IMG/VR virus record: IMGVR_UViG_3300038441_000795
Span: 1 to 23,362 of that record
Reading direction: 5' to 3' (one strand)
DNA length: 23,362 bases
DNA from: a virus
Part shown: piece by piece, positions 1,866 to 16,574 of the stretch
How positions within the stretch are numbered: position 1 is the stretch's first letter
How the letters are laid out: every line of letters starts with the position of its first letter
The notes under the pieces: model-generated
Told to the model about the DNA's origin: nothing
Seen by the model: the letters and a program-made list of their open reading frames with translations, nothing else
Database searches by the model: none
Position numbers and translations under genes: made by a program

Positions 1866-2215
1866 TGCGGGTGCAAGTAGCAGGCAGTCGGCCTCCACCT
1901 GATTGCCGGGAGGTGCAAATCCTCCCACAGCGCCGAATCGAGGCAGCGCCTCAACGGAATGCGAGGCTGCGAAAGCGACAAACGATAGCAGCATATAATG
2001 TCGGGCTAGGTAGTGATTGCTGCAATCCTAGGTAACCCCGCAAGGGACTGTTCCAGTACATGCCCAGCCTCGCATACAAATCAGAACGGCGGCGCTGAAA
2101 GCAGAAGCGCGGTCCATGGATAGGTTATGTGCTTACGAGCAACATTGTGCGGTTCAAGTCCGCTGCCTGGGTAGCCTAACGATAACGGCCCCAAGCCGGC
2201 GTAGCGTCCGGCCCG
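1866..2215 (+). ncRNA. Candidate structured RNA / late-operon leader
   Basis: This non-coding stretch is dense with inverted repeats. Module A: GGTGC 1870-1874 pairs GCGCC 1930-1934, enclosing a 7-bp hairpin (1883-1889/1901-1907) and a perfect 6-bp T-arm-like hairpin (1908-1913/1921-1926, 7-base loop TGCAAAT). Module B: a perfect 11-bp stem ATGCGAGGCTG 1959-1969 / CAGCCTCGCAT 2065-2075 encloses three hairpins: GATTG/CAATC within CTAG/CTAG, CCC-GCAA-GGG with a GNRA loop, and ACTG/CAGT. Module C: GCGCT/AGCGC (2092-2110), TGCT-TACG-AGCA (2130-2141), GCGG-TTCAAGT-CCGC (2149-2163) and GCCGG/CCGGC (2195-2212). No complete tRNA cloverleaf can be drawn. It may be a phage structured RNA, a 5' leader controlling the late operon, or decayed tRNA genes. 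Strand is assumed from neighbouring genes. Confidence 0.4.
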
Positions 2216-13763: not shown

Positions 13764-16574
13764 ATGGCAGTAATCAATCCTATCCAAAGTCAGCGAACGA
13801 TTGATATCGGCGGCATTCCTGACACGCGTGTCGACAACGGCGTCGGGCAGGGCATTGCACAGCTTGGCGGGGCCATCGGCAACGCAGCTGAACAACAGAA
13901 CGCTTTGGCAAACCGCCGCCTTGAAATGCAGCGTCAGGCGGATGAGTTCGCAGCCAATCAGTCATTCCAGCGCTGGCAAGATGATAACACGCTGGAGTTT
14001 GGACAGACACAGCAGAAGATTGATCCATCTGGCAAGGGCTTCACTGATACCGTTTCGAATATGTATACGAAGCGATCAGAGGAATTTCTTAAGACGGTTC
14101 CCGCTGCTTTGCAGCCACGCTTTCAGGAATTGGTGGCGACTGCTCGTAATCAGTGGATTGATAAGGGCGCAGCTACTGAGATCGATCAGCGCAACACTTG
14201 GTATCGTACCGGCATAACAGAACGTCAGCAGACGTTGCAAAATCAGGTCTTCAACGATCCTGCTATGTTTGATGCGGCCAAGCAGGATGCATACCGGACT
14301 ATTGACGCTTCTGGTCTTTCTCCAACTGAGAAAGAAGCGCTCCGTAAGAAAACCGATGAAATGTTTGCCCTGACGATTGGTGAGCGCGAAATCAGAGATG
14401 CGGAAGTTAATCCAAACAGTACAACAGGGGCATCTGCGCGCCTTGGCGTCCCAGCCGTTGGCGGCGATGCAGTGGAAACCGTTGTCAGCAAAATTATAGG
14501 TGTTGAAAGCGGCGGCAAAGCCAACGCGAAGAATCCTAACTCATCAGCCTCCGGTCTAGGACAGTTCCTCGATAGCACGTGGGTAACTATGGTGAGAAAG
14601 TATCGTCCAGACATAGCGGGCGGTCGCAGCAATCAGGATCTCATAGCGCTTAAGACAGACCCGCAGCTTGGTCGCGAAATGACGCGTGCATACACACAGG
14701 AGAATTCTCGCTTCCTTGCGAGCCGAGGTATCCAGCAGACGCCTGGCAACATCTATCTTGCACACTTCCTTGGCCCGGCAGGCGCGGCACAGGTGTTGAA
14801 AGCCAACCCAAATGCACCAATTGAAAGCATTGTTGGCCCGCAAGTTGTTCAGGCTAACGGATTTCTTCGAGGCAAATCGGCGTCTGAAGTTGCCGCATGG
14901 GCCAGTGGAAAGATGGGTAGTGCAAAGGGTGAGGTAGCAAGCGTTCCAACAGACCCTCGTTTTGTTAACCTTTCATTGTCACAGCGCCTTTCACTGTATG
15001 ACCAGATGCAGGCAGCAGCGCAGCGCGGACAGACGGCAATCGAAGCCCAGCAGACAGCGGCCTACAATTCGCAGAAGGGCGCTTTGCAGCTTGGTATTCA
15101 AACAGGCGAAGTTTCCAGTTCCGAGCAAATCCTGTCGAGTGGCATGAATGACAGCGACAAAGCAACGCTTATCTCTGCTCTGCGCTCGCGACAAGGCGAC
15201 CAGATAGCGGTAGGCGAGGCAGTTGCAGCTTTTCAGAATGGCGGTTTGACGGTTGATCCATATTCCAGTGACGGGCGAAAGCGTGTTGACGCGGTTGGCG
15301 ATGTGATTTCGAAGGCCGTACCGGGTGAACAGCAACAGGCAGCGTATGAGGAACTGGTACGCCAGTCCGGTACATTGCCGCAGTCGGTGCTCAACAATAT
15401 CCGCGCAGGTGCGGATAGTCAGGTTGCGGCAGAAGTGCAGGCGGCAATGCAGGCTGCATCACGCTTCGCACAAGTTAATCCGGCTGCACTTGGTCGGCGC
15501 GAAGGTGGCGATGCTATCCAGCGCAAGGTCGATGACTTCGATTATTACGTGAACACGCTTAATCTCGATCCATCGGACGCAGCACGCCGTATTGCTGAGC
15601 AGAATGACCCGAACAAGGTCCGTGACCGTAAGGCGCTTGAGCCAGCCGCGAAAGAGTTCCGCAAGCAACTGGAAGGCTCTGACATCGGTGCAATGTTTGA
15701 TGACAGCTTTATGGGATGGCGATCAAACCCGAATGTCGGCTTCACCGAAGGGCAGGCGGCTGGCATTGCAGCGGATTACCTCGCGATAGCCGAAGAACAG
15801 TTCTATCTCACAAGCGGAAACACCGAACTGGCCAAGTCTCGTGCCGAACAGGAAATGAAGCGACTGTATGGTACGTCAGATATTGGCGGCTCGAAAACGA
15901 TTATGAAATATCCGCCTGAGAAATATTGGCCGGGTATGCCAGGCGAAAGAGATCCATACGCCTACGCGAAAGACCAGCTTATCAGCGATCTTGCAGAGGC
16001 TTTCCCTGACGACCCGCTACTGAATCCTAAGAAGTCAGGTTCAGGTTTCGTAGGCACTGTTAACGGTAGAACTGTCGATATCCGCGATGAAAGAGGCTTG
16101 TCAGACTATCGCAATATGATCCGTGACACAGCTTTGAGCCGCATTGTATTGGTTGCCACTCCTGAGACTGGTGCAGAAGCGAAATCAAACCAGCTTCCCG
16201 GCTATACCGTCCTGTATAAAGACGAGAACGGCAACTTGCAGACGCTTTACGGCAAACAGTGGCGACCAGACCCGCAGGCGGTTGTCGGTGGCGCTCGTCG
16301 TCAGCAACAGGATCGCTTAGGCCGCGCTGAAGTGTATCAGCAGACAGGGCAAGGCCTTGCTGACTTTCTCGCAGGCGGCAAAATCCCTATGGGTGCTGGA
16401 AGTGCATGGGATAATCCGGAAGCACAACAGACTGCACCTATTCCCGCACAGGCACCGTCAGCACCTGTCCCGTCGACGCCAAGCCCAACTGTTCAGGGTA
16501 ACTTGCAGAACCAACGCTCACAGTTGTTCCAGAATGCGCAGCAAAGCGGATTGCTCACGCCGGGGGGTATGTAA
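13764..16574 (+). CDS. Internal virion protein with lytic transglycosylase domain
   Basis: The protein has 936 aa. It carries an SLT-type peptidoglycan transglycosylase domain at residues about 235-385: catalytic Glu248 lies in GVESGGKANAKNP, followed by SASGLGQFLDSTW, then NIYLAHFLGPAGA and EVAAWASGKMG. The rest is long helical, Gln/Ala-rich sequence, and the last about 60 residues are Pro/Gln-rich linker. The domain would open the cell wall during DNA injection. In T7 this activity is at the N-terminus of gp16; here it lies inside the first of the two giant proteins, behind an about 235-residue helical region. The stop overlaps the next ATG by one base (TAATG). Confidence 0.92.
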   Translation: MAVINPIQSQRTIDIGGIPDTRVDNGVGQGIAQLGGAIGNAAEQQNALANRRLEMQRQADEFAANQSFQRWQDDNTLEFGQTQQKIDPSGKGFTDTVSNMYTKRSEEFLKTVPAALQPRFQELVATARNQWIDKGAATEIDQRNTWYRTGITERQQTLQNQVFNDPAMFDAAKQDAYRTIDASGLSPTEKEALRKKTDEMFALTIGEREIRDAEVNPNSTTGASARLGVPAVGGDAVETVVSKIIGVESGGKANAKNPNSSASGLGQFLDSTWVTMVRKYRPDIAGGRSNQDLIALKTDPQLGREMTRAYTQENSRFLASRGIQQTPGNIYLAHFLGPAGAAQVLKANPNAPIESIVGPQVVQANGFLRGKSASEVAAWASGKMGSAKGEVASVPTDPRFVNLSLSQRLSLYDQMQAAAQRGQTAIEAQQTAAYNSQKGALQLGIQTGEVSSSEQILSSGMNDSDKATLISALRSRQGDQIAVGEAVAAFQNGGLTVDPYSSDGRKRVDAVGDVISKAVPGEQQQAAYEELVRQSGTLPQSVLNNIRAGADSQVAAEVQAAMQAASRFAQVNPAALGRREGGDAIQRKVDDFDYYVNTLNLDPSDAARRIAEQNDPNKVRDRKALEPAAKEFRKQLEGSDIGAMFDDSFMGWRSNPNVGFTEGQAAGIAADYLAIAEEQFYLTSGNTELAKSRAEQEMKRLYGTSDIGGSKTIMKYPPEKYWPGMPGERDPYAYAKDQLISDLAEAFPDDPLLNPKKSGSGFVGTVNGRTVDIRDERGLSDYRNMIRDTALSRIVLVATPETGAEAKSNQLPGYTVLYKDENGNLQTLYGKQWRPDPQAVVGGARRQQQDRLGRAEVYQQTGQGLADFLAGGKIPMGAGSAWDNPEAQQTAPIPAQAPSAPVPSTPSPTVQGNLQNQRSQLFQNAQQSGLLTPGGM

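Follow-up and report, generated by a model that had tools for sequence, protein, structure and literature searches.

The window analysed here, i.e. the 23,362 nucleotides of the viral record IMGVR_UViG_3300038441_000795, contains a hairpin-rich non-coding block, which raises the question of whether this block encodes an RNA and, if so, of which kind. The earlier note, made from the sequence alone, proposed a single structured phage RNA with tRNA-like T-arms at positions 1866-2215. All stems and T-arm mimics named there were found in place on re-reading the sequence, and the view that no complete tRNA can be built agrees with ARAGORN reporting zero tRNA or tmRNA genes in the window. That the pairing exceeds chance is borne out by comparison with homologues but not by single-sequence folding: the minimum free energy of the block gave z = -1.15 relative to shuffles, and 17 of 100 shuffles folded equally well. 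In Rfam 15, no family reached the gathering threshold in the window, a search over positions 1780-2320 with E up to 10 returning only a sub-threshold match to STnc100 (E 0.3). A promoter scan of positions 1700-2400 found no sense promoter.

Best supported is a core module at positions 2081-2221 of the + strand, matched by the covariance model R1, in which a constant frame of three helices encloses a variable insert, the payload. The 5' strand of the closing helix P1 (TCAGAACGG, 2081-2089) pairs with CCGTTCTGA at 2213-2221, which extends past the end coordinate 2215 given earlier and puts the end of the block at 2221. P1 encloses the P2 hairpin (2092-2110; stem 2092-2096/2106-2110, loop GAAAGCAGA at 2097-2105), assigned by comparison, the payload (2111-2194), assigned by payload comparison and containing a T-arm-like hairpin at 2149-2163 (stem 2149-2152/2160-2163, loop TTCAAGT at 2153-2159), and the P3 hairpin (2195-2212; stem 2195-2199/2208-2212, loop CGUAGCGU), all on the + strand; P1 and P3 derive from an alignment of 44 phages. 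The 20-mer at positions 2091-2110 matches 56 viral contigs from very different phages, and every copy inspected takes the same place in a frame of the order P1, P2, variable middle, P3, P1. In this family frame the sequence of P1 is free to change with its pairing being kept, the P2 loop reads GAAAGCAGA and the P3 loop GUAGCG. A scan with the P3 motif only gave at least 120 matches, and the pooled 20-mer and P3-motif matches comprise at least 116 candidates, including a few duplicate or spurious assignments; the strict P3 rule holds for 40 of 52 20-mer matches, the others being near variants by eye. Viral contigs with this RNA family number well over 100, and several named phages have it as well.

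The earlier note suggested examining homologues for covariation, which we find to be strong. Among 44 aligned members, 96.2% of the cells in paired positions are paired, as against 72.7% for shuffles and 33-40% for slid versions; double changes occur in 14 of 19 pairs and the covariation score amounts to 0.610 versus 0.153 for shuffled alignments, these covariation figures being inflated by a membership partly chosen by P1 and P3 pairing. P1 shows changes on both sides in eight of nine pairs across the 44 phages, with G-U pairs being present, the P2 stem GCGCU/AGCGC swaps with GCGUG/CACGC and GCGGG/CCCGC around an almost invariant loop, and the P3 cells are paired to 100%, with double changes in four of five pairs in the 44 aligned members. 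A check without selection for P1 or P2 is provided by 118 distinct loci with the P3 motif, taken from the matches listed and complete in their upstream sequence: the exact loop GAAAGCAGA lies within 260 nucleotides upstream in 67 of these 118 loci (0.11 expected), and in all 67 P1 forms seven to nine of its nine pairs, perfectly in 41, the mode of shifted controls being three. Most of the 48 inspected P3-motif loci without the exact loop have a P1 partner and variant P2 hairpins. The window itself shows the features we propose as family criteria, i.e. compensatory P1 pairing, the P2 loop GAAAGCAGA and the P3 loop GUAGCG. R1 recovers it at positions 2079-2223 with 85.5 bits (E 4.7e-18), a score which is not independent since the window belongs to the 44 sequences used to train R1; independent support comes from the pairing tests and the named phages. 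The idea that the block consists of chance hairpins in non-coding DNA draws on the single sequence folding no better than shuffles, yet its probability is negligible and it is refuted for positions 2081-2221 by the covariation, the P3-motif check and the matches in named phages.

Positions 2081-2221 are almost certainly a member of a structured phage RNA family, well supported as real and new, and the proposal of an undescribed phage structured RNA is upheld by the strong covariation of the homologues together with Rfam yielding no match and ARAGORN no tRNA. We found no paper on this family in open-access PMC text, and we regard it as new with respect to Rfam 15 and the open-access literature, a listing in a human-microbiome catalogue of candidate structured RNAs (PMC8040213) being possible.

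The proposal of a single structured block, in turn, is correct as to a structured RNA, but the block is a chain of separately closed units, of which the core module is the best supported. The array starts just 3' of a terminator-like hairpin ending the upstream gene (1838-1860, + strand, terminator scan), and the same hairpin is also located 5' of the array in the loci L001/L057, L042, L046, L056 and L061. The first unit (1861-1938, + strand, assigned by sequence and MFE fold) is partly tRNA-like and consists of a 9-bp hairpin (1883-1891/1899-1907, 7-nt loop) and, immediately 3' of it, a 6-bp T-arm-like hairpin at 1908-1926 (stem 1908-1913/1921-1926, loop TGCAAAT at 1914-1920). Judged by its sequence this unit looks like two tRNA arms; chance hairpins, refuted only for 2081-2221, may also account for it. 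Next follow a leader (1940-1960, + strand, assigned by comparison), composed of the hairpin GAGGC-AGC-GCCTC (1940-1944/1948-1952) and AACGGAAT (1953-1960), and a second module (1959-2075, + strand, assigned by sequence), in which an 11-bp closing stem (1959-1969/2065-2075, ATGCGAGGCTG/CAGCCTCGCAT) surrounds variable inner hairpins. The long-range stem emphasised in the earlier note is this closing stem and belongs to the 5' neighbour of the core module. At its 3' end the array finishes in a terminator-like hairpin, CAGCCTCGCTCACGCGGGGCTG plus TTTCATTT (2251-2272, + strand, terminator scan).

Comparison with the nearest relatives, found via the large terminase, shows only short motifs in common within the block, i.e. 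the leader GAGGC..GCCTCAACGGAATGCGAG, CTCGCAyACAAATCAGAACG, GGCGCTGAAAGCAGAAGCGC and the closing CCGTTCTGA. A BLAST comparison of the region with phages gave no match, conservation being limited to short motifs; queries with such motifs succeeded. The leader hairpin varies in type across phages (GAGGC/GCCTC, GCCC/GGGC, GCGG/CCGC) with AAC[AG]GAAT being constant, and the leader 16-mer CTCAACGGAATGCGAG occurs in 25 viral contigs, mostly related arrays, several being chance matches. Related arrays join the stem-closed units in differing orders, the leader standing immediately 5' of the core in L087, L088 and L096, and the inner end of the second-module stem changes on both sides among them (GAGGCTG/CAGCCTC, GAGGCGG/CCGCCTC, GAGAAC/GTTCTC). 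L096 and L107 (2841624036_000001 and 2841624036_000006), both viral contigs from the same source genome, have leader, frame and payload in common in the stretch shown. A further module, CCCTCATGCAGTACCGCCCCACTTATCCGGGTAGCGCGAGACATGAGGG, was found in 21 viral contigs by a 20-mer search, e.g. in L047, L059 and L063; it is reminiscent of P3 in its closing stem and in the motif GGGTAGCGC. The array is optional: locus L029, with an upstream protein 92% identical, is without it. L029 corresponds to the 4.6-kb contig WNDY01000117.1, which bears the label of a Xylophilus MAG and encodes a large terminase 98% identical to that of the window; it is probably a phage contig, possibly misbinned.

Modules shuffled like mosaic repeats within an optional array bring to mind an element acting at the level of DNA, i.e. 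a packaging or recombination site or an intergenic mosaic repeat resembling RIME/AIME, which are exchangeable stem-forming units in the intergenic DNA of Hyphomicrobiales. We consider this very unlikely, as P1 keeps its pairing and not its sequence, G-U pairs occur and neighbouring tRNA genes lie on the same strand, all of which fits RNA, and as few bacterial genomes carry the module. R1 found it in 3 of 240 genomes of the class and in 0 of 101 genomes of a second bacterial set, strict filters with few candidates scored applying to both searches and the second, run without a positive control, being uninformative. The P2 pattern matched in 4 of 398 genomes of the phylum, the P2 stem being incompletely paired in each case, and a reversed control pattern behaved similarly; we read these matches as background. 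Bacterial genomes rarely carry the core module, the searches being below full sensitivity, and dispersal in host chromosomes of the RIME/AIME type was not found (3/240 by the model, 4/398 by the P2 pattern). Unlike RIME/AIME, going by their description, the core module occurs mainly in phages of several groups and has a covarying RNA-type structure and tRNA neighbours. On the Rhizobium plasmid CP087972.1 (L241/L244/L245) two weak R1 matches of about 70 nt, at 16300-16372 and 31955-32024, contain almost no payload; the second one has annotated DUF982 genes nearby.

Named phages with R1 matches are Ochrobactrum phage POI1126, Synechococcus phage Ssp-JY40 and the Pseudomonas phages Orimi01, Persinger and vB_PaeS-D14H; partial or weaker matches occur in PotUPM1, Yong-M3-232 and Sulfitobacter phage pCB2047-A. 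Annotated phages mostly leave this region blank, a hypothetical ORF overlapping part of it in Orimi01 and PotUPM1. For Orimi01 (L262) this is the hypothetical protein XAI70718.1 (2493-2966), which overlaps the RNA match (2491-2728), shares its strand and may be a gene called in error.

The payload, located between P2 and P3 and mostly 36-190 nt long, evolves differently from its frame. In 126 module pairs with a frame identity of at least 0.9, mean payload identity is 0.49 compared to 0.48 for shuffled payloads, with some kinship existing in that a few payloads are mutually related. The loci L085 and L113 share the frame and have flanks 85% and 84% identical with a payload identity of only 42%, and conversely the payloads of L059 and L097 are 87% identical with flanks of 68% and 51%; we therefore conclude that the insert travels or is exchanged as one block. 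Folding of the payloads is on average slightly better than that of shuffles (mean z -0.52), and the two payload ends pair with each other above permuted ends (0 of 300 permutations). A T-arm-like hairpin is present in 10 of 114 payloads, including that of the window (0.25 expected, at most 2 in 200 shuffles). The core payload of L102 contains by eye a nearly tRNA-shaped stretch ending in CCGGTTCCA, for which ARAGORN reports no tRNA.

Guide-type RNAs combine a constant scaffold with a variable segment, and the block replacement of the payload would suit a regulatory small RNA in which the payload base-pairs with host or phage transcripts and the frame serves as stabiliser and protein-binding handle. 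Against this reading, which we regard as rather improbable, payloads are slightly more structured than shuffles, complementarity to the own contig or locus in antisense is limited to short stretches, and the only match of the window's payload in 249 Hyphomicrobiales genomes is 22 nt long, present in two of them and outside tRNA genes.

The genomic surroundings link the core module to tRNA genes. In 928 kb of loci ARAGORN found 20 tRNA genes, 18 of them no farther than about 540 nt from a core module. A tRNA is present within 500 nt of 14 of 115 modules, on the same strand as the module in 14 of 14 cases. tRNA-Met is a frequent neighbour and tRNAs also stand between modules, as in L104; in POI1126 the order is tRNA-Met, leader, modules, core and tRNA-Gln. 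A sense terminator is found within 250 nt 3' of 17 of 104 modules; the corresponding numbers are 4 for the 5' side and 3 for a mirror control. The tRNA-like character ascribed to the block in the earlier note thereby takes another form: T-arm-like hairpins are enriched in the inserts but not universal, and members of the family neighbour tRNA genes on the same strand. In the window, the T-arm-like hairpins at 1908-1926 and 2149-2163 are the single feature shared with tRNAs, no cloverleaf or tmRNA being recognised by ARAGORN. Taken at sequence level, tRNA strand and terminator bias fix the strand of the module and support co-transcription, and the core module likely acts as an RNA that stops at an intrinsic terminator.

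An early/late boundary is no defining setting of the family, its genomic positions being varied. In the window the RNA is intergenic and shortly 5' of the terminase genes, the block being followed by the small and large terminase subunits and a head-tail adaptor (portal-type) protein, and the copies in the Synechococcus and Sulfitobacter phages adjoin terminase or portal genes as well, as would be expected for a cis-acting element of a neighbouring gene such as a 5' or 3' UTR, a riboswitch or an antitermination site. Such a role is improbable, and more so than that of a small RNA, given that the modules have many neighbour families in mixed relative strand and that the arrays finish in terminators and include tRNAs. 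Among 140 neighbours 206 PHROGs were assigned, terminase being the commonest but with few cases, and no partner gene shared by the neighbours of core modules was found.

To our knowledge few phage-specific structured RNA families are known, GOLLD and ROOL being the best-known near tRNA islands. Both are RNAs of phages and prophages of unknown function often located near tRNA islands; one GOLLD example lies downstream of a Met-tRNA, tRNAs are sometimes positioned within the GOLLD linker region, many GOLLD members exceed 800 nt, and the ROOL structure is highly complex with multiple pseudoknots (PMC12286853). Like GOLLD, the core module is phage-borne, near tRNA genes and built of conserved and less conserved parts. 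It differs from GOLLD in its size of about 100-250 nt, in having only three constant helices and in a payload replaced as a block, and from ROOL in the frame shown being composed of three simple helices unmatched in Rfam. As the earlier note had stated, there is no match to GOLLD or ROOL and yet a similar habit: the covariance models did not match, Rfam gave no GOLLD or ROOL match on the POI1126 array either, and the module is phage-borne and near tRNA genes. This nearness is only a habit in common with GOLLD and ROOL, not membership. An analogue of the two, in which an RNA-only particle or tRNA holder acts in lytic growth and the insert is an internal linker, would agree with tRNA-Met as frequent neighbour and with tRNAs between modules here too; sequence and structure unmatched to either family, a unit of about 100-250 nt versus more than 800 nt in many GOLLD members, and no hint of multimers here make this reading, like that of a regulatory small RNA, rather unlikely. 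The working principle of the core-module RNA may nevertheless prove to be GOLLD- or ROOL-like.

Smaller RNAs offer further comparisons. RNA species 1 and 2 of phage T4 (bands C and D) are small stable RNAs encoded in the phage tRNA cluster with unknown role, and these single-phage RNAs are not known to form a widespread family built around a variable insert. Going by their description, they resemble the core module as small RNAs of a tRNA cluster and differ from it in being confined to a single phage. Bacterial Y RNAs (YrlA) combine a scaffold stem with an appended part mimicking tRNA, an organisation of scaffold and tRNA-like part similar to the core module, which is without an Rfam match and in the surroundings of which no gene of the Ro60 type came to notice; cmscan with the full set of 4227 Rfam families returned no Y RNA match, for such Y RNA models as this library may include.

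We favour, with a probability of roughly 50%, a model according to which the core module is a structured RNA frame, co-transcribed with tRNAs, possibly acting as a scaffold that presents an exchanged payload. The RNA would be made in one transcript with the phage tRNAs where these are present and would end at the intrinsic terminator; the frame would form a stable scaffold, the two conserved loops of which might dock onto a shared partner, be it a host protein, the ribosome or one another, and the payload arm, being exchanged, would meet a changing host factor. By eye, we found no convincing complementarity for a pairing between the P2 loop and the P3 loop. In the simplest form of the model the payload might serve as decoy or bait to host defence proteins that bind RNA or cleave tRNAs. 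A role in phage-host conflict is suggested by the exchange of the payload as a block, by the array being optional and by the neighbouring tRNA genes. A scaffold or decoy function in this conflict is a tentative proposal deduced from sequence comparison, and with similar reserve we consider it possible that a constant three-helix scaffold with a fast-exchanged arm, placed in tRNA-type operons, reflects an arms race against host RNA or tRNA factors; that this arms race extends over phages of several bacterial groups is likewise conceivable, on balance rather doubtful. The turnover of the payload could alternatively arise from weak constraint and not from an arms race. As tRNA decoys only a subset of modules would come into question, since about 90% of the payloads lack the T-arm-like hairpin and most modules have no nearby tRNA.

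The core-module RNA is small, common in environmental phages and present in the cultured, inducible phage POI1126, which makes it testable. A strongly constrained frame around a block-swapped insert points to something the host keeps changing, and if the payload were a decoy, guide or bait, an RNA-based layer would be added to phage counter-defence; otherwise it would still constitute a new annotated feature filling blank intergenic gaps of many phage genomes.

Two minor observations concern individual contigs. The window's ORF at 262-867, without a PHROG match, holds GRDHTTILNSLRRF, which by eye resembles the DnaA DNA-binding signature. On the phage contig IMGVR_UViG_3300043256_000158 there are two core modules (L134, L176), separated by some 25 kb.
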